Source of the DNA: Actinopolyspora lacussalsi
GTDB taxonomy: Bacteria; Actinomycetota; Actinomycetes; Mycobacteriales; Pseudonocardiaceae
Length of the DNA stretch: 64,000 nucleotides
Assembly (NCBI GenBank): GCA_030803735.1
Contig: JAURUC010000001.1
Location: 1,993,501 to 2,057,500 of the forward strand
Reading direction: 5' to 3'
The notes beneath the pieces were generated by a model that did not search any database, had not been told where the DNA came from, and saw only the letters and a list, made by a program, of their open reading frames with translations. The first letter of the stretch is position 1. Each line of letters starts with the position of its first letter. Positions 14,465-22,705 of the stretch are shown here, in pieces. The position numbers and the translations under genes were made by a program.

Positions 14465-15235
14465 ATGCAGCAGCTGTGGCCCGTTCCAGAGACGAAACAG
14501 GTGGACAGCGAGCCGGAAACGGCCGACGAGCTGGAAAGTTTCTACGAGTACCCCTCGGAGCTGAGTCGCCCGTGGGTGAGGGTGAACTTCGTCTCCAGCC
14601 TGGACGGCGCCGCGGCGGTGAACGGCGGTTCACGCGGGTTGTCCAGCCCCGTGGACCGACGCGTGCTCTCGCTGATCCGGGATCTCTCGGATGTCGTGCT
14701 GGTCGGGGCCGGAACCGCGGCGGCCGAGGGATACCGGGGATTGCGGCGCACCGAGGCGCGCACCCGACGACGTGCCGAACGCGGTCTGGGTGAAGTGCCC
14801 CCGATAGCGGTGGTCACCGGCAGCGGTTCGATCGACCCAGCATCGCCGCTGCTCACCGACACGGTCACCACCCCGATCGTGCTCACCAGCGAGGCCGCGC
14901 CCGTCGAGCGCGTCGCCGCGCTGACCGAGGCGGGCGCCGATGTGGTGACGGCCGGGCGGAACGAGGTCGACCTCCCGACGGCCCTGCGGGAGCTGGCACG
15001 GCGCGGGCTGTACCGCATCGGTTGCGAGGGTGGTCCCGGCCTGTTCGGAGCCCTGATCGCCGCTGACGTGGTCGACGAACTCTGCCTCACCGTGTCACCA
15101 CTGCTGACCAGCGGGGACACCAGTAGGATCGCCACAGGCCCAGTGGCCGGAACACCGCGTGGCATGCGGCTGCTCTCGGCGCTGTACGCCGACGAATCGA
15201 TGCTTCTGCTCCGCTACGGGAGACTGGCCGAGTGA
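14465..15235 (+). CDS. RibD C-terminal-domain (DHFR-like) pyrimidine reductase
   Basis: Stand-alone reductase domain of the RibD type, 256 residues, predicted to use NADPH. Markers: RPWVRVNFVSSLDGAAA, SDVVLVGAGTAAAEGY, GLYRIGCEGGPGLFGALIAA, DELCLTVSPLL and the C-terminal LLLRYGRL. It resembles Rv2671, which has dihydrofolate reductase-like activity and confers p-aminosalicylate resistance when overexpressed. The true substrate here is uncertain (riboflavin intermediate or folate). ATG 14465 lies 55 bp from zapE. Its stop overlaps the ECF sigma-factor start by 4 bp (GTGA), so it is the first gene of the sigma operon. Confidence 0.85.
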   Translation: MQQLWPVPETKQVDSEPETADELESFYEYPSELSRPWVRVNFVSSLDGAAAVNGGSRGLSSPVDRRVLSLIRDLSDVVLVGAGTAAAEGYRGLRRTEARTRRRAERGLGEVPPIAVVTGSGSIDPASPLLTDTVTTPIVLTSEAAPVERVAALTEAGADVVTAGRNEVDLPTALRELARRGLYRIGCEGGPGLFGALIAADVVDELCLTVSPLLTSGDTSRIATGPVAGTPRGMRLLSALYADESMLLLRYGRLAE

Positions 15236-15816
15236 CCGACGGGGTCGATTCCGACCAACAGCTCGACGAGCGCGTCCGCGAAGACAGCGCACTGCTCATG
15301 GCGGCCAGGAACGGCGACACCTCGGCGTTCGACTCCCTCGTTCGCACGCACACCGACAAGCTCTACCGCGTGGCACTGCGGATCGTGGGCGATCCGGCGG
15401 AGGCGGAGGACGCCGTGCAGGACGCCTGGGTCTCCGCCTGGCGCTCGCTGGCCACGTTTCGCGGTGACTCCGCCGCGTCGACGTGGCTCTACCGGGTGGT
15501 CACCAACGCGGCGCTGAGCCAGGTCCGCAAACGGCGCCCCACGGTTCCGCTGGACCCGACCGACGAATCCATGACCCCGGTGGGGAATACGGGGAACCCG
15601 GAGGGAACGGCCTTACGCGAGGAGGAGACCAGACGAGTGCACGCGGCGATATCCCGCCTCGAAACCTCCCAACGACTGCCACTGGTGCTGCGTGAGCTCG
15701 AGGGGATGAACTACGAGGAGGTCGCCGAAGTGCTGGAGGTGAACGTCACCGCGCTGCGGTCTCGGCTCCACCGGGCACGTCTGGCACTGTTGGCCGAATT
15801 GAAGGAGGTGCCTTGA
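15232..15816 (+). CDS. ECF-type RNA polymerase sigma factor
   Basis: Alternative sigma factor of 194 residues. Region 2 (about 20-90) has FDSLVRTHTDKLYRVALRIV, EAEDAVQDAWVSAWRSL and STWLYRVVTNAALSQVRKRR, the DNA-melting and -10 recognition segment. Region 4 (about 130-185) has RLPLVLRELEGMNYEEVAEV and TALRSRLHRARLAL, a helix-turn-helix for the -35. The linker is short with a Pro/Thr-rich stretch, so there is no extra domain. It is coupled by 4-bp overlaps to the reductase upstream and to its zinc-finger anti-sigma factor downstream. Probable regulon: the Asp23 envelope cluster that follows, by position only. Confidence 0.93.
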   Translation: MTDGVDSDQQLDERVREDSALLMAARNGDTSAFDSLVRTHTDKLYRVALRIVGDPAEAEDAVQDAWVSAWRSLATFRGDSAASTWLYRVVTNAALSQVRKRRPTVPLDPTDESMTPVGNTGNPEGTALREEETRRVHAAISRLETSQRLPLVLRELEGMNYEEVAEVLEVNVTALRSRLHRARLALLAELKEVP

Positions 15817-16412
15817 ACGAAGAGAACTTCGCTTCGGATCGGCGCCTGCCCTGCGGTCAACGTGTCGGCGAGCTGATCGGATATCACCTGGACGGTGTAC
15901 CCCCGGCGTTCGAGGAGCACCTGCGGGACTGCCCGCACTGTCGGGCGGAGCTGGCGGAGATATCCCGGCGCTGGCGACCGGTGCGACGACTGGCACGGAG
16001 TCACGCGGTCCCCTCGAACGACCTGGTGGACCGAACGCTGACCACCCTGCGCGGACTGCGCGACAGGCACGGTGGCCAACCGCTGGAACTGTCACAGGAG
16101 CACGGCAAACTGCTCATCCAGGCAGCGGCGACGCTGAGCCTGACGCGACGGCTGAGCGCGGAGGTCCTGGACGACTTCTCCGGCATGGCGATGCGCTCGT
16201 GCCTGATGGCGGACGAGGCGGTGCGCGTCGATGTGGTGGCCGCCTACCCGACGGCCGCTCACGAATTCCTGCCCGAGATCCGTCGCAGGCTGGTAGCCGC
16301 GCTGCACGGCTATCTCGGCGCGGGAACCCCGGATGTCTCCGTACGACTGGCCGATGTCGTTCCGCCGTGGGACGGAACCGGGGAAGAAACTGACATTCCC
16401 CCAATCGGGTGA
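15813..16412 (+). CDS. Zinc-finger anti-sigma factor with Asp23-like C-terminal domain
   Basis: Soluble 199-residue protein starting at TTG 15813 (TTGA overlap with the sigma stop) behind a strong GAAGGAGGTG. The N-terminal zf-HC2 module reads HLRDCPHCRAEL (H-x3-C-x2-C) with an earlier Cys in RLPCGQRVGEL, typical of anti-sigma domains that bind ECF sigma factors. There is no membrane segment. Residues ~140-190 (VRVDVVAAYPTAAHEF, then LPEIRRRLVAAL, then TPDVSVRLADVVPP) line up by eye with the core of the Asp23 protein at 16536 (IDLDIVVEYG, AVRRNVIHSV, VTEVNISVNDIHLP). This is an unusual fusion that would tie the sigma switch to the Asp23 complex. The second assignment is inference. Confidence 0.82.
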   Translation: MNEENFASDRRLPCGQRVGELIGYHLDGVPPAFEEHLRDCPHCRAELAEISRRWRPVRRLARSHAVPSNDLVDRTLTTLRGLRDRHGGQPLELSQEHGKLLIQAAATLSLTRRLSAEVLDDFSGMAMRSCLMADEAVRVDVVAAYPTAAHEFLPEIRRRLVAALHGYLGAGTPDVSVRLADVVPPWDGTGEETDIPPIG

Positions 16413-16535
16413 TAACACGTATCGAGCCGGAAGACCGCGGCACGAATTAGCATCTGATCGGGTACCAGTCCACACCGACCAACCCCGTCATCAGCTCGGA
16501 AGGCGGGGCGACCGGTGTTTCCGAAAGGAGTCGGC

Positions 16536-17075
16536 ATGACGCAGTCGGGCAGCAGCTCCACCCGTTCGAGCAAGTCGGAGTCCACGCAGTCGGAACAGCC
16601 GGGCGGCACGGACGTGACCGGTATCCCGGAGTCCCGTTCGCCGGACACACCCGCGCGCCTGGCGGACGACACCTCGCAGGGCAGGACCAGCATCTCCTCC
16701 TCGGTGGTGCAGAAGATCGCCGGAATCGCCGCGCGGGAGATCTCCGGTGTGTACTCGATGGGTGGCGGCGTGTCACGCGCTTTCGGTGCCCTGCGGGAAC
16801 GCATCCCCGGCGGCACCGGGAGTTCGAACGTTTCGGGCGTGCAGGTGGAGGTCGGGGAACGCCAGACCGCGATCGATCTGGACATCGTCGTGGAGTATGG
16901 TGCCGCGATCGTGGATCTCGCCCGTGCGGTACGCCGCAATGTGATCCACAGTGTGGAACGCATGTGCGGCTTGGAGGTGACCGAGGTCAACATCTCGGTC
17001 AACGACATCCACCTCCCCTCCGAGGACGAGGAGGAGACCACCCAGCAGAACGGGACGGGATCACGAGTGCAGTGA
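16536..17075 (+). CDS. Asp23/Gls24 family envelope stress response protein
   Basis: Protein of 179 residues, ATG 16536 five bases after GAAAGGAG. The N-terminal ~55 residues are Ser/Thr-rich and disordered. The Asp23 domain then runs SISSSVVQKIAGIAAREISG, VYSMGGG, GVQVEVGERQTAIDLDIVVE, RAVRRNVIHSVERMCGLEV and VTEVNISVNDIHLP; it ends in an acidic tail. In Firmicutes, Asp23 is a very abundant alkaline-shock protein held at the membrane by AmaP, with cell-wall stress phenotypes. It is the first of seven co-oriented genes, ending with AmaP-like anchors at 18523-19707. Confidence 0.9.
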   Translation: MTQSGSSSTRSSKSESTQSEQPGGTDVTGIPESRSPDTPARLADDTSQGRTSISSSVVQKIAGIAAREISGVYSMGGGVSRAFGALRERIPGGTGSSNVSGVQVEVGERQTAIDLDIVVEYGAAIVDLARAVRRNVIHSVERMCGLEVTEVNISVNDIHLPSEDEEETTQQNGTGSRVQ

Positions 17076-17161
17076 CCGGCTGAGCGGTGACTCTGCCCGG
17101 TATCCCCGTCCGAAAACGTTGTGCGTCCCGAACCACGCCACGACAGCACGGGAGCACGAGG

Positions 17162-17515
17162 ATGACCACGGAGAACGAGACCACACGGGAGCACGAGCAC
17201 GTCGCCGAACGGATAGCGGCAGCGGCCCTCGAACACCCCTGTGTGGTCCGGCTGGACGGCGGGGAACACGGAATCGTCGCCACCCACCTGCCCGGGCGAC
17301 GGGTGACCGGCGTCCGAACCACCGCGGACACCGGCGACGCGACCGAGGTGTGTGTCGTGCTGCTGCTGCGACGTCCCGTTCCCGAGCTAGTGGCCGAGAT
17401 CCGGGAGAGGATACGCGAAGTGACCGATGAAACGATGATCGACGTGACCGTCGCGGACGTGCTGGCACCGGAACACGAACCGGAGTCGAACCACGGGACG
17501 GGTGAGGCGAGGTGA
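17162..17515 (+). CDS. Minimal Asp23-like protein
   Basis: Small soluble protein of 117 residues, ATG 17162, in the Asp23 cluster. The pattern AERIAAAALEHPCVVRLDGG, HLPGRRVTGVRTT, TEVCVVLLLRRPVPELVAEI, RERIREVTDE and MIDVTVADVLAP follows the strand-helix-strand order of the neighbouring Asp23 domain, with a truncated N-terminus. I infer an Asp23-fold partner; it is more divergent than the protein at 16536. The C-terminus is acidic and polar. Its stop overlaps the start of the next gene by 4 bp (GTGA), so translation is coupled. Confidence 0.72.
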   Translation: MTTENETTREHEHVAERIAAAALEHPCVVRLDGGEHGIVATHLPGRRVTGVRTTADTGDATEVCVVLLLRRPVPELVAEIRERIREVTDETMIDVTVADVLAPEHEPESNHGTGEAR

Positions 17516-17844
17516 TCGGTTCGCGCCGGGATGCGGATTCGCATCGGGGTTCGGATTCGCGCCGCGCCTCTGATGAAGCCAGTGAAGCGCGGGTCCGACT
17601 GCGGGAGTTCGTACGTGCGAACCATCCCGACGTCGGTGGTGATCCCGAAGTCTTCGCCGCCGGTGTCGCGGAACTACAGTCGGCACGGGACGGAGTGCGC
17701 TCGCCGAGCGAACCACCGACTCCCCTGCCCGGCGAACGGGGAGACGGGCCGGTGGTGCTCGTGCGTCGGCACGGTCTGCGCGGGCTGCTGGCCCGGATAC
17801 GGGAATGGCGAGCACGCCGCGGGCGCGGGCCGCGAGTCGTATGA
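17512..17844 (+). CDS. Small basic protein with an HPD-GGD J-domain-like motif
   Basis: Protein of 110 residues, GTG 17512, coupled to the preceding Asp23-like gene. Residues ~24-55 read ARVRLREFVRANHPDVGGDP then EVFAAGVAELQSARD. The basic helix, HPD tripeptide and following GGDPE-helix match helix II, loop and helix III of DnaJ J-domains, but helix I (YxxLG) is missing. A Pro-rich linker and an Arg-rich C-terminal helix (RHGLRGLLARIREWRARRG) follow. Function unknown. Either a degenerate J-domain that recruits DnaK to the envelope complex, or a coincidental motif. I did not recognise a named family. Confidence 0.65.
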   Translation: MIGSRRDADSHRGSDSRRASDEASEARVRLREFVRANHPDVGGDPEVFAAGVAELQSARDGVRSPSEPPTPLPGERGDGPVVLVRRHGLRGLLARIREWRARRGRGPRVV

Positions 17845-17907
17845 CCGCGGCGGTCACGTACCGACCGAACACACGCCGGCTCGCGGGACGAATAGGAAGG
17901 TTGTGCC

Positions 17908-18087
17908 ATGAACGCGACACAGACCGGTTTGATCGCCGGGCTGATTCTCGGCGTAGCGGTTACCACTGGTGGTTTCACCGCCTTTCTGATCACGTTGGCG
18001 GTCGGTCTGATCGGCTTCGTGGTGGGCCGGTTCGTGGACGGCGACATGGAGTTCGGTGACCTGTTCGGACGGGGTAAGGACCGGTGA
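17908..18087 (+). CDS. DUF2273-like small membrane protein of the Asp23 operon
   Basis: Membrane peptide of 59 residues, ATG 17908 behind AGGAAGG. It has two hydrophobic stretches: TGLIAGLILGVAVTTGGFTA, then FLITLAVGLIGFVVGRF, ending with a charged tail DGDMEFGDLFGRGKDR. Size and layout match the small integral membrane proteins (DUF2273) that sit beside asp23 and amaP in Firmicutes. It probably acts as a small anchor or channel-like partner in the complex. Its stop overlaps the next Asp23-like gene (GTGA at 18084-18087). Confidence 0.8.
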   Translation: MNATQTGLIAGLILGVAVTTGGFTAFLITLAVGLIGFVVGRFVDGDMEFGDLFGRGKDR

Positions 18088-18494
18088 CCGGGACAGTGGG
18101 CACCGCCGAGAGCGCCGCGACGACACGTTCCGAGCACGGCGGTATCACCGAGCCGTCGGAGCGCGGTGGACTGCGGATCGACCGGGGAGTGCTGCGCAGA
18201 ATCGCCGAACACGCGGCGGACTCCGTGTCGAACTGTGTCCGGACGCGACGGCGCGTGGCGGGACTCGGTACGGGCGAGCACGGAGCGACGGCACGGTTGG
18301 CCGGTCCGGAACGACAGTTGCGGATACGTCTGGACCTCGCGCTGCGTTATCCGGCACCGATCGCCGAGACCGTGAGCGCCGTTCGCGAACGAGTGCGCAC
18401 CGAGCTGGAACGCATGGCGGACTGCCGGGTCGCCACGGTGGACGTCACGGTCACCGCGCTGGTGCCACACCCCACCGCCCCACGAGTGGAGTAG
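18084..18494 (+). CDS. Asp23/Gls24-like protein (second full copy)
   Basis: Protein of 136 residues, GTG 18084, translationally coupled to the small membrane protein. Asp23-type layout: LRIDRGVLRRIAEHAADSVS, then RVAGLGTGEHGATARL, RQLRIRLDLALRYPAPIAET, VSAVRERVRTELERMADC and RVATVDVTVTALVP. The N-terminal 30 residues are polar. It differs strongly from the 16536 copy, suggesting a hetero-oligomer rather than simple duplication. Function inferred from family and neighbours: cytoplasmic layer of a membrane-tethered envelope-stress complex. Confidence 0.8.
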   Translation: MTGTVGTAESAATTRSEHGGITEPSERGGLRIDRGVLRRIAEHAADSVSNCVRTRRRVAGLGTGEHGATARLAGPERQLRIRLDLALRYPAPIAETVSAVRERVRTELERMADCRVATVDVTVTALVPHPTAPRVE

Positions 18495-18522
18495 CCGCTC
18501 CCACTGGAAGGACTGCCGACCG

Positions 18523-19056
18523 ATGCGTGCGTTCGTTCGAATCCTCACCACGCTGTTGGGACTGCTGTTCCTGGCCGCTGGTCTGCTGCTGGTGATCGAA
18601 GCGGTACGAGCCGCCGTCTCTACCGGTGCGGATCCGCTGCTGGTGGGTCGTGCCACCATGCGAGACGAACTGGCCGGAGTCTCCTGGCGGGACACGCTGG
18701 TGCGAACGGGGGCGGCCGTCACCGCCGTGCTCGGCCTGCTGCTGATTTTCGTGGCCGCCCGGGCCGGTAGGGGAGACATCAGGCTGCACGACCCCGCGCC
18801 GGAGGTGGTGGTGGTCACCCGTCCTCGGTCACTCGCACGGCTGGTCGGCCACCGGGTTCGGGAGCAGGACGGGGTGGCAAGCGCGTCCGTGGTCGCGCGC
18901 CGCAAAGCGGTGCGGGTGAACGCGGTCAGCCAATTCACCGAGGTCGGTGACCTCGAACCCAGACTGCGGGAGACCGCTCGTGCCGCGACGGAGGAACTGC
19001 CGCTGGTCACGCCCCCGAAGGTCTCGGTCGCGGTCAAACCGGCGAAGCAGCGATGA
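18523..19056 (+). CDS. DUF6286 protein: two-helix membrane anchor with Asp23-like tail
   Basis: Protein of 177 residues from ATG 18523. Two transmembrane helices near residues 5-33 (TLLGLLFLAAGLLLVIEAV) and 62-86 (TGAAVTAVLGLLLIFVAA) flank an ~30-residue external loop (ADPLLVGRATMRDELAGVSW). The cytosolic tail (about 95-175) has VVVTRPRSLARLVGHRV, VASASVVARRKAVRVNAVS and VSVAVKPAK, with alternating helix and strand like Asp23. DUF6286 is found in actinobacteria next to Asp23 proteins. The likely role is a membrane dock for the cluster. It sits 24 bp before the AmaP-like gene. Confidence 0.82.
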   Translation: MRAFVRILTTLLGLLFLAAGLLLVIEAVRAAVSTGADPLLVGRATMRDELAGVSWRDTLVRTGAAVTAVLGLLLIFVAARAGRGDIRLHDPAPEVVVVTRPRSLARLVGHRVREQDGVASASVVARRKAVRVNAVSQFTEVGDLEPRLRETARAATEELPLVTPPKVSVAVKPAKQR

Positions 19057-19080
19057 TCACAAGGCTGTCGAGGAGCGATC

Positions 19081-19707
19081 ATGGCGGTTGAGCAGTCGAG
19101 CACACCGAGACACACCGAGCGGACCGCGAACCGGCTGGGACGCTCGCTGACCTTCGAGCGGACGATCGTTCACGTGGTCGGGACGCTGGCGGTACTGGCG
19201 GGTGCGCTGACACTGCTGGTGGGCTCGGGTGTCCTCGGGGTGTACCGGGCGGACCGCCCGGTACTGGACCCGCTGCTGGAGCGGTGGATCCGGGACAATC
19301 CCCGGTTGAGCCTCACGGCAGTGGCCGTGCTGGGCGTGCTGCTGGTGCTGCTGGGACTCTGGTGGCTGATCCACGCGTTGCGTCCGGAGAACCGCCCGGA
19401 CATCCACATCGGCGGCGGTACCGCGGGAACCACCTCGCTCACCGGGACGGCGTTCACGGACGCGGTGCGGACCGACGCGCGCGAGGTCAGCGGTGTGACC
19501 CGAGCACGGGTGCGTACCACCGGCACCGCCGAGAACCCCGGGCTGCGGATGGTGCTGTCGTTGCAGCACGGCACCGACGTCCGTCAGGTCTGGGAGGAAC
19601 TGGACGAGAAGGTGCTCTCCCGAGCCCGCGAGGCGCTCCGTGTCGAGACGCTGCCGACCGTTGTCCGGCTGAACCTGGACAGCTCACCGGCGCAACGCGT
19701 GCGGTGA
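19081..19707 (+). CDS. amaP: AmaP-like alkaline shock response membrane anchor
   Basis: Protein of 208 residues, ATG 19081. Two membrane helices (VVGTLAVLAGALTLLVGSGV and LTAVAVLGVLLVLLGLWWLI) are separated by an external loop of about 35 residues containing DPLLERWIRDNPRLS. The C-terminal cytosolic domain (RTDAREVSGVTRARVRTTG, LRMVLSLQHGTDVRQVWEEL, LPTVVRLNLDSS) is Asp23-like. This matches AmaP, which anchors Asp23 to the membrane in staphylococci. It is the last gene of the cluster. It is convergent with the EamA transporter, with only 13 bp between stops. Confidence 0.82.
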   Translation: MAVEQSSTPRHTERTANRLGRSLTFERTIVHVVGTLAVLAGALTLLVGSGVLGVYRADRPVLDPLLERWIRDNPRLSLTAVAVLGVLLVLLGLWWLIHALRPENRPDIHIGGGTAGTTSLTGTAFTDAVRTDAREVSGVTRARVRTTGTAENPGLRMVLSLQHGTDVRQVWEELDEKVLSRAREALRVETLPTVVRLNLDSSPAQRVR

Positions 19708-20737: not shown

Positions 20738-20880
20738 AACGTGTAAGAACGTTCACCGAGTCAACGCGTTGCCGCGCTGACGTTGACCCGCGTGGGCCTT
20801 CCCGTGGCGATACCCATTGCCACCGAGGGTGGGCTTAAGCGGGTTTCCAGCGGGCTCGTTTAGCCTCACGGCGCAACTCG
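20738..20880 (-). ncRNA. Candidate omega-RNA (reRNA) at the tnpB 3' end
   Basis: TnpB guide RNAs overlap the 3' end of tnpB and run across the element's right end. On the tnpB strand this region has a stem GTCAACG/CGTTGAC (20760-20766 with 20781-20787, 14-nt loop) just before the presumed right end. The last ~40 codons of tnpB encode a low-complexity tail, as expected when the DNA is kept for RNA structure. The guide would be read from the flanking EamA leader. Boundaries are inferred, not seen. Confidence 0.35.
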
Positions 20881-22105
20881 CCGAAGAGGTGTCGTGCTCA
20901 ACAAGAGCAGCGAGGTTACGCGCTGCGTTGAGGTCCCGGTCGAGGACCAGGCCGCAATGTTCGCAGCGGTAGACCCGTTCGGACAGGCGCAGTTTGGCTT
21001 TCACCGCGCCGCAGTCGTTGCAGGTCTTCGAGCTGGGGTGCCACCTGGACGCGACGTGGGTGTGCACGCCGGACCAGGCTGCCTTGTACTCGATCTGACG
21101 CCGGAACTCGCCCATGCCGACCCCGGCAACGTGCCGGGACAAGCGCCGGTTGGACATCATTCCTGTGACGTTGAGGTCTTCCAGCACGATCGCACCGTGC
21201 TCGCGCACGAATCGGCTGGAGAGCTTGTGCAGCCCGTCTCGGCGGGCGTTCGCGACGAACGCGTGCAGCTTGGTGATGCGGGCTTGCGTTGCACGCCACC
21301 GGTTCGACGGCTTCTGCCGAGTGCGCCGATCCGGACCGGTGCGGCGGGACGCCTGGCGTTGCAGCCTGCGTAGTTCTTTCTGCGCGGCTTCGAGGTGGCG
21401 TGGGTTCGGCACAACCTCGCCGGTCGACAGCACCGCGAGGGACTTGATGCCCAGGTCGACACCCACGGCGCTGTCCGGGTCGGCGGGTGGAGGATCGTTG
21501 CGCTGGATTTTCACTGAGAACGACACGAACCACCGGCCGCCCCGGAAGCTCACCGTGGCGGACCGGATCGTCGCGGACCCGCGCTCCACGTGCCGGGCGA
21601 GTGTGCGGGTGGACTCGTGGGTGCGCACCGTACCGATACGCGGCAGCGTCACATGCCGACGGTCCGAATCGGCGAGACCGAACGAGCCGGTGGTGAACCG
21701 ACACGACCAAGTGTGGCGCTTGCCCTTGAACCGGGGGAACCCCACCGTTTTCCCGGCGCGCTTGCCGGTGCGGGACTGATGCCAGTTACCCAGCGCGTCA
21801 GCCAGATTGGCCAGCCCGGTGGCGTAGGCTTCCTTGGAGTTCTCGCCCCACCACGGGGCCACCTCGTCCTTGGCCGCGTTCCAGTCTCTGCGCAGCGAGC
21901 ACGCCGACCACGAGATCGACGGCGTCAGCTCCTCGGCCGGGATGCCGTAGGACGCTTCGGCCTTGCGCTGGTCCATGACCGCTTTCACGCGGGCGAGCCC
22001 CCAGTTGTAGGCGAATCGCTGAGCACCGCAGTGCGACCGCAGCTGGTCTTCCTGCTGTGAGTCCGGGTCGAGCGCAAACCGGTACGCCTGGATCACCTCG
22101 GTCAC
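20753..22105 (-). CDS. tnpB: TnpB, RNA-guided transposon nuclease (OrfB/RuvC-like)
   Basis: Protein of 450 residues, GTG 22105, coupled to tnpA by a GTGA overlap. N-terminal OrfB helix-turn-helix-like segment: YRFALDPDSQQEDQLRSHCG and RFAYNWGLARVKAV. The RuvC nuclease core is intact: Asp217 in VGVDLGIKSLAVL, Glu309 in AIVLEDLNVTGM, and the DRD motif 389-391 in LVLDRDLNAARN. The zinc ribbon Cys362/365 and Cys381/384 (TCNDCG and YRCEHCG) is complete. TnpB proteins cut DNA next to a short TAM under guidance of an RNA from the element's right end and help retain the transposon. Relatives are ancestors of Cas12. Confidence 0.93.
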   Translation of the reverse strand: MTEVIQAYRFALDPDSQQEDQLRSHCGAQRFAYNWGLARVKAVMDQRKAEASYGIPAEELTPSISWSACSLRRDWNAAKDEVAPWWGENSKEAYATGLANLADALGNWHQSRTGKRAGKTVGFPRFKGKRHTWSCRFTTGSFGLADSDRRHVTLPRIGTVRTHESTRTLARHVERGSATIRSATVSFRGGRWFVSFSVKIQRNDPPPADPDSAVGVDLGIKSLAVLSTGEVVPNPRHLEAAQKELRRLQRQASRRTGPDRRTRQKPSNRWRATQARITKLHAFVANARRDGLHKLSSRFVREHGAIVLEDLNVTGMMSNRRLSRHVAGVGMGEFRRQIEYKAAWSGVHTHVASRWHPSSKTCNDCGAVKAKLRLSERVYRCEHCGLVLDRDLNAARNLAALVEHDTSSASCAVRLNEPAGNPLKPTLGGNGYRHGKAHAGQRQRGNALTR

Positions 22106-22674
22106 GATCGCGGCTCCGCAGCGCACGCGGCAAGACCGTTCTGAGCGCGTTTCTTCGCCGACCGGCGCCCGTACAACCGGGCGCACATCGAGGTCAATAC
22201 CTCGGTGATGTCGCGCACCACATCCTCGGCGACCTCTTCGTTGTTGAGCACGACAATGGTGCGCCCGGTCGCGGACAGTGCGGCTTCCAGGTGCTCGACG
22301 CCGAATCGGGCCAACCGATCGCGGTGCTCGACCACGATGCAGGAGACCTCGGCGTCGGCGAGGAGTTTCGCGAGCTTGGCGCGACCGCCGTTCATGCCGG
22401 ACCCGACCTCGGTGATGGTCGCGTTCAGGGTGATGCCGCGCTTGCTGCATTCTTCCGCGACACGGCCAGCCTGCCGATGCAGGTCGTCTTTCTGGTCGGC
22501 GCTGGACACGCGGCAGTACGCGACGGTACGGCCAGTCGATTCCTTCGGCGGCTCGACCAGGATCGTGCCGGTAGGAAGCTGACGAGCGGCAACCGGCAGA
22601 GTGCCCGCGTGGAACCAGTTCAGCGCGGTTCGATACGAGACACCCTGCTCGCGCGCCCACTCCTTCAGCTTCAT
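22102..22674 (-). CDS. tnpA: TnpA, IS607-type serine recombinase
   Basis: Transposase of 190 residues, ATG 22674. A MerR-like DNA-binding helix-turn-helix (LKEWAREQGVSYRTALNWF) precedes the resolvase domain, the domain order that distinguishes IS607 from other serine recombinases. The catalytic serine lies in VAYCRVSSADQKDDL (Ser57/58), and the conserved arginines lie in VEHRDRLARFGVEHLE. VGSGMNGGRAKLAKLL is the family's signature loop. It catalyses excision and insertion through a circular intermediate with little target specificity. The C-terminal Lys/Arg-rich end overlaps the tnpB start. Confidence 0.93.
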   Translation of the reverse strand: MKLKEWAREQGVSYRTALNWFHAGTLPVAARQLPTGTILVEPPKESTGRTVAYCRVSSADQKDDLHRQAGRVAEECSKRGITLNATITEVGSGMNGGRAKLAKLLADAEVSCIVVEHRDRLARFGVEHLEAALSATGRTIVVLNNEEVAEDVVRDITEVLTSMCARLYGRRSAKKRAQNGLAACAAEPRS

Positions 22675-22705
22675 GCGTACAGTTTAGCACACATTGACGC
22701 GGATC

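Follow-up and report, generated by a model that had tools for sequence, protein, structure and literature searches.

A ZAS-Asp23 fusion as predicted anti-sigma factor beside a multi-component Asp23 operon in Actinopolyspora lacussalsi

What links a dedicated extracytoplasmic function (ECF) sigma factor to the Asp23-type envelope proteins that are encoded directly behind it? This question is raised by a locus of Actinopolyspora lacussalsi, a member of a genus of halophilic actinomycetes, in a stretch of 64,000 nucleotides that was analysed here (JAURUC010000001.1, a single contig of 5.03 Mb, positions 1,993,501 to 2,057,500, subsequently referred to as the window). Ten genes run in one direction (+) from 14465 to 19707. 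They include an ECF sigma gene (15232-15816), the gene of a predicted anti-sigma factor (15813-16412) and an operon of Asp23-like proteins with putative membrane anchors (16536-19707). A preliminary description of this DNA had proposed that the sigma factor controls the Asp23 scaffold. We found by profile comparison that the anti-sigma factor carries an Asp23-type domain itself, which shifts the likely direction of signalling.

The protein encoded at 15813-16412 (+, TTG start) had been taken for a zinc-finger anti-sigma factor. The zinc domain was borne out, but the second domain of the protein had been overlooked: as judged from profiles and relatives, it is a single soluble polypeptide with an N-terminal ZAS zinc domain and a C-terminal Asp23-type domain. 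The candidate zinc ligands are C14, H36, C40 and C43, and the Asp23-type domain covers approximately residues 88-185. The family profile matches the ZAS anti-sigma factor RsiW (5wuq) over profile positions 13-86 with an E-value of 3.4e-6. An alignment of 50 sequences that were not selected by motif (alignment A4: the window protein, five proteins from a first search and 44 from a profile search) contains the H-x3-C-x2-C pattern, and none of the 50 departs from C14, G15, H36, C40 and C43. The same five residues are invariant in a second alignment (A3, 31 sequences), whose members were selected using H-x3-C-x2-C, so that the invariance of the motif there is by selection; one member (L108) is short and lacks the Asp23-type half.

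The C-terminal half matched the canonical Asp23 set of the loci with an hhalign probability of 98.3 (E 2.4e-14, a single comparison). PF03780 was matched at E <= 0.01 by 14 of the 31 A3 members (best 7.5e-16) and DUF6286 by six (best 4.6e-4). The structural model, with a mean predicted local distance difference test score (pLDDT) of 87.4 and a predicted template modelling score of 0.57, has four N-terminal helices (18-86), followed from 91 to 183 by the order b-b-a-b-b-a-b. No segment of the window protein rises above the hydrophobicity threshold of 1.6, and two of 30 relatives lie just above it (1.64 and 1.65). Among named genomes, Actinopolyspora righensis and A. alba have a close anti-sigma factor (96 and 95% identity). 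Some Nocardia and Streptomyces proteins that NCBI names Asp23/Gls24 are members of this same ZAS-Asp23 family.

The anti-sigma factor is one of six proteins in the row for which Asp23-type domains are supported by profile comparison, divergent members included, in agreement with the up to six Asp23-type folds that had been counted by eye. The others, all on the + strand, are the canonical Asp23/Gls24 protein Asp23-1 (16536-17075, PF03780 5.5e-30), the divergent Asp23-like protein Asp23-2 (17162-17515, ATG start, 117 amino acids), the Asp23-like protein Asp23-3 (18084-18494, PF03780 8.7e-10), a DUF6286 membrane protein (18523-19056, PF19803 2.8e-18) and an AmaP-like membrane anchor (19081-19707, NF033218 1.7e-13). 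The last two each have two hydrophobic segments and a C-terminal Asp23-type domain. The AmaP-like protein falls narrowly short of the NCBIfam cut-off of NF033218 (50.6 vs 55 bits). Only Asp23-1 and Asp23-3 reached the gathering score of PF03780; Asp23-2, the DUF6286 and AmaP-like proteins and the window anti-sigma factor did not, and Asp23-2 gave no Pfam match to Asp23.

Eleven family profiles were compared all against all with hhalign. Their member sets were collected by iterated searches with some drift inside the Asp23 superfamily and may be mixed. The anti-sigma C-terminus matched Asp23-3 (probability 98.6), Asp23-1 (98.3), Asp23-2 (92.4), AmaP (91.6) and DUF6286 (76.3), and stayed below 1 with each of five unrelated profiles (HPD, sigma, RibD, DUF2273 and ZAS). 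DUF6286 and AmaP matched each other at 99.1. Asp23-3 gave weak matches to both (23 with DUF6286, 54 with AmaP), and neither had a direct match to Asp23-1 (0.2). The highest pair involving an unrelated profile was AmaP with DUF2273 (6.4), and the HPD protein profile had no Asp23-type match. Asp23-2, searched with a sequence starting at 17159, one codon before the real start at 17162, matched the Asp23 domain of the anti-sigma factor at 92, Asp23-3 at 86 and Asp23-1 at 57 (43 with the sides swapped). Models were made for the anti-sigma factor and Asp23-2 only; the latter (pLDDT 78.7) begins with a helix, followed by strands, a second helix and a last strand. A PDB sequence search with Asp23-1 returned no match.

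How constant is the association of the two parts? A draw of 249 genomes from the order contained 128 with DUF6286, 102 of them above the cut-off. We read one locus each from 60 of the DUF6286 genomes, chosen not at random but in favour of genus, family and high scores; two loci (L093 and L095) are interrupted by contig ends. Thirty of the 60 contain a sigma factor and a ZAS protein of the window kind side by side. In three, another kind of sigma/ZAS pair follows some 1.7 kb downstream, two have a sigma gene with no ZAS open reading frame detected, and 25 have no sigma match above 150 bits within the stretch. Of the 30 pairs, 21 are upstream of the operon and co-directional with it, 8 upstream and divergent and 1 downstream; with the window and the second copy of its genome added, the 32 pairs are distributed 23, 8 and 1. 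The gene row is thus not a matter of chance, because the arrangement recurs in relatives.

The search was also run from the side of the anti-sigma factor. In a class-wide draw of 118 genomes, nine had a full-length anti-sigma factor (the genome of the window included), and each of the nine genes had a separate Asp23 match no more than 3 kb away. Six of these nine loci were newly read; the sigma gene adjoins the anti-sigma gene in all six, with the pair divergent from the Asp23 operon in four and downstream in two. An order-wide draw of 150 genomes yielded 34 full-length anti-sigma factors in 32 genomes; for 23 of the 34, an Asp23-only match (E <= 1e-11) is no further than 5 kb away. The remaining 11 comprise one in the L106 cluster, nine with a weaker Asp23-like gene directly downstream, and one (L181) without such a gene. 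An Asp23-family neighbour therefore stands beside 33 of 34. The survey of other actinomycetes that had been suggested in the preliminary description thus links the pair to the Asp23 cluster across families.

The genome of the window contains two further Asp23 loci. One is a second sigma/Asp23 cluster (L006 4335-8281, genome 3.4123-3.4163 Mb, - strand), which, of the eight Actinopolyspora genomes, is matched in this one only. By eye, its anti-sigma frame is apparently broken into pieces in different frames, possibly through sequencing error. Its sigma factor clusters in the tree with one from a distant family (G218, support 100/98), which suggests that this cluster was acquired from outside. 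The other is a canonical Asp23 gene (L007 5460-6050, genome ~4.710 Mb) with no anchors or sigma gene seen alongside by eye; a further full Asp23 match of this kind occurs in all eight Actinopolyspora genomes.

The dependence of the two parts on each other is one-sided: the anti-sigma genes are nearly always found near Asp23 genes, and the 25 operon loci mentioned above lack such a sigma factor in the stretch. The same is seen within the genus. Two of the eight Actinopolyspora genomes (G294 and G401) have no sigma orthologue among all candidates scored, and no full-length anti-sigma factor among those scored for it (150 of 164 candidates in G294, 150 of 163 in G401). The other six have the sigma factor at >=82% identity. 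The best sigma match in G294 and G401, at 42-43% identity, is a different ECF, and the G294 copy groups with the copy of that ECF in the window genome (support 100/100). Both genomes retain RibD along with the Asp23 operon and its HPD gene. On these comparisons, they appear to have lost the sigma/anti-sigma pair and kept the operon.

The shared domain, the Asp23-family neighbour beside nearly every anti-sigma factor and the dispensability of the anti-sigma factor to the scaffold suggest, at the level of sequence, that the scaffold acts on the sigma factor as an input and is not solely its output. We propose a signalling unit, to which we give an even chance, in which a membrane-anchored Asp23 assembly binds the Asp23 domain of the anti-sigma factor and thereby gates the sigma factor (reverse or two-way wiring). 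The soluble anti-sigma factor would hold the ECF sigma factor, its ZAS domain presumably binding the product of the neighbouring gene. The DUF6286, AmaP-like and DUF2273 proteins would anchor the Asp23 assembly at the inner face of the membrane. Through its Asp23 domain, the anti-sigma factor might join this assembly or be captured there. Envelope stress may then alter the state of the assembly, which would serve as the signal; the grip of the ZAS domain would change, and the sigma factor would be freed or captured. The putative targets of the sigma factor may or may not include this operon.

Several points weigh against this proposal. The window anti-sigma factor has no Pfam Asp23 match, and its Asp23 assignment comes from relatives and profiles. 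The Asp23-2 profile matches neither DUF6286 nor AmaP (0.5); because these two match neither Asp23-1 nor Asp23-2, their place in the superfamily is carried mainly by the anti-sigma profile. For nine of the 34 anti-sigma factors, the only Asp23-like neighbour is a weak one (47-90 bits, drifted profiles) and a canonical Asp23 gene is missing nearby; seven of these come from one genus, and L181 has no such neighbour. An operon-only sigma factor would give the same one-sided pattern of loss. According to the accessible text of PMC8999054, soluble ZAS anti-sigma factors usually sense redox stress, for which a scaffold is not required. The favoured wiring, finally, is a prediction from sequence.

The genus just mentioned (8-10.5-Mb genomes, L172-L178) has the sigma gene, the anti-sigma gene and one Asp23-like gene as a trio apart from the main Asp23 operon, and does so in all seven of its genomes in the draw. 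The same seven genomes have a shorter anti-sigma match elsewhere (model positions from 50 or 52 on), which adjoins RibD and a sigma gene in L144 and L147, the two loci read of the seven.

A more specific version of the proposed gating is possible, and we offer it tentatively. Here, the anti-sigma factor would be built as a decoy subunit, through its Asp23 domain, into a polymer of Asp23 anchored at the membrane, and the length of this cytoskeleton-like scaffold or its attachment to the membrane would directly determine how active the sigma factor is. Sensing would fall to the scaffold, which would not be the target, and the HPD protein might recruit Hsp70 for remodelling.

An ordinary switch has to be weighed as well, in which the sigma/anti-sigma pair turns on the Asp23 operon and the Asp23 domain of the anti-sigma factor is a feedback or tethering device. 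Adjacency that is constant in both orientations speaks for it, and the divergent layouts would suit a common promoter region. In 8 of 68 regions, Asp23 is preceded by the element GTGTCYT (9 sites vs 2.7 expected), and the closely related locus pairs L107/L112 and L131/L132 each have a common half-site further upstream; noticed post hoc, the element is a possible ECF promoter lead. However, it is absent from the upstream region of the window, and a cross-family search of 19 sigma-bearing upstream regions found no convincing two-part ECF motif. In Actinopolyspora, an 18-base element, GAAYTARCATYTKAYCGG (16444-16461, +), lies 5' of Asp23-1 and is kept in all eight genomes, the two sigma-less ones included (seven exact, one with one mismatch); the pattern was derived from these eight sequences, so that its presence there is by construction. 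It contains a TANNNT box and is a single block, unlike a two-part ECF promoter. It is essentially single-copy: elsewhere in the eight genomes we found two sites with two mismatches each, compared with seven for the backward control. Sigma-less genomes that retain both the operon and this element count against the ordinary switch, which we regard as doubtful. The control of 16536-19707 by the sigma factor that had been proposed is neither shown nor excluded by these observations.

By eye, GTGTCYT is accompanied by GTG-rich half-sites about 16 bases upstream at five loci with divergent layouts (L107, L112, L117, L131 and L132, upstream of Asp23 or CsbD).

It is also conceivable that the zinc site of the ZAS domain senses thiol oxidation, as in RshA-type anti-sigma factors, and that the Asp23 domain merely positions the protein near the membrane. 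Soluble ZAS anti-sigma factors normally answer oxidative stress (PMC8999054, accessible text), and all 50 sequences of A4 have the four candidate ligands. A structural zinc site, however, would have invariant ligands too, and a redox switch leaves the Asp23-family neighbour in 33 of 34 cases unexplained; we consider it unlikely. Functionally separate neighbours, adjacent by chance and held together by descent, are very improbable: RibD is an example of such a neighbour here and one genus keeps the pair apart from its main operon, but adjacency is kept while orientation and position change in several families and class-level relatives, and the Asp23-type domain is common to both sides.

Compared with the gating by an Asp23 assembly that we favour, what has been described before? 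The sigma groups ECF286 and ECF292, a grouping that reportedly goes back to Casas-Pastor et al. in 2021, are relevant here. A switch of this kind had been thought undescribed, but the accessible text of PMC8999054 already lists both groups as adjoining Asp23-family predicted anti-sigma factors, with no experimental activation data given there (types WP_003983642.1 from Streptomyces rimosus for ECF286 and WP_036395736.1 from Mycolicibacterium cosmeticum for ECF292). Compared by description, both cases consist of an actinobacterial ECF sigma gene adjoining a soluble putative anti-sigma factor of the Asp23 family, in the window by profile evidence. In contrast to the window protein with its two domains, that text names ZAS for ECF270 and ECF271, not for ECF286 or ECF292, and it contains no mention of the remaining Asp23 operon. 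It also describes ChrR, which resembles the window protein in having an N-terminal ZAS domain and a second, C-terminal domain that acts as sensor. The second domain of the window protein differs in being Asp23-type, not a cupin, and of a type common to the neighbouring scaffold proteins. The sigma-Asp23 pairing is of a known, predicted kind; new here, as read from the sequences, are the fusion of ZAS with Asp23, the number of Asp23-type domains in the row and the pattern of loss. Among the literature matches listed (titles and abstract starts, subscription papers mostly outside), there was no experimental study of such a sigma/Asp23 pair.

The Asp23-AmaP operon of Firmicutes also has a DUF2273-type protein and csbD, and the staphylococcal asp23 operon is read by sigma B. 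CsbD-like genes in five relative clusters (L117, L106, L115, L090 and L097) are reminiscent of the csbD of the staphylococcal operon. The window shares with the Staphylococcus aureus module that Asp23 and AmaP are encoded in one operon (PMC6954212, accessible text). It differs in its several Asp23-type proteins, its two anchors, the dedicated ECF/anti-sigma pair, DUF6286 and the HPD protein. In S. aureus, AmaP holds Asp23 at the membrane, the cell wall stress response is induced when either protein is lost, and purified Asp23 makes cord-like structures; what Asp23 does at the molecular level is described as still unclear (all PMC6954212). In Streptomyces venezuelae, one Asp23/Gls24 gene drops after ethanol shock (PMC9769785, accessible text). 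Should the shared Asp23 domain be what connects the two, a single question, whether the scaffold binds the anti-sigma factor and gates the sigma factor, would address both the function of Asp23 and the activation of ECF286/ECF292, and the assembly state of Asp23 would become readable through a promoter reporter.

Every gene named in the preliminary description was found on the + strand, with sigma, anti-sigma, Asp23-like and anchor genes in one direction. The sigma gene (GTG start) overlaps its neighbours by 4 bases on each side, and ECF regions 2 and 4 were both found (Sigma70_r2 2.8e-21). Overlaps of 4 bases occur at four junctions in total (RibD/sigma, sigma/anti-sigma, Asp23-2/HPD and DUF2273/Asp23-3), and 123 bases separate the anti-sigma gene from Asp23-1. 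The small membrane protein at 17908-18087 (+) is of the DUF2273 type; its PF10031 match (9.8e-5, 22.7 bits) is below the cut-off of 25.4, and it has a hydrophobic segment with a Kyte-Doolittle value of 2.25.

The HPD-motif protein (17512-17844, +) resembles the second half of a J-domain, with a helix, an HPDxGG loop and a helix, followed by a basic tail. The protein itself has no Pfam match. HPD is kept in 31 of 31 relatives from the 60 loci and HPDxGG in 30, and the position of the gene within the cluster varies. One of 25 members matched the DnaJ Pfam weakly (0.17); at the profile level, large T, small T and TIM14 were matched weakly (0.22-0.46), the best row being NDUEG6 (5.3e-4). A half J-domain is possible.

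The RibD-like pyrimidine reductase (14465-15235, +, RibD_C PF01872 1.6e-32) had been placed at the head of the operon. RibD has relatives in 56 of the 61 genomes that were drawn, and a divergent zapE-RibD pair is found in 16 of the 30 best loci. For 11 of these 16 pairs, sigma and Asp23 genes are both missing from the surrounding ~1.5 kb, at odds with a leading role. RibD is probably an inherited neighbour and not a component, and the cluster appears to have landed beside an older zapE-RibD pair. On the other side of the cluster, close 3' of it and past an EamA transporter, a Resolvase-type serine recombinase gene and an OrfB_IS605/Cas12f1-like TNB (TnpB) gene lie on the - strand (20753-22690); the two together look like an IS607-type element.

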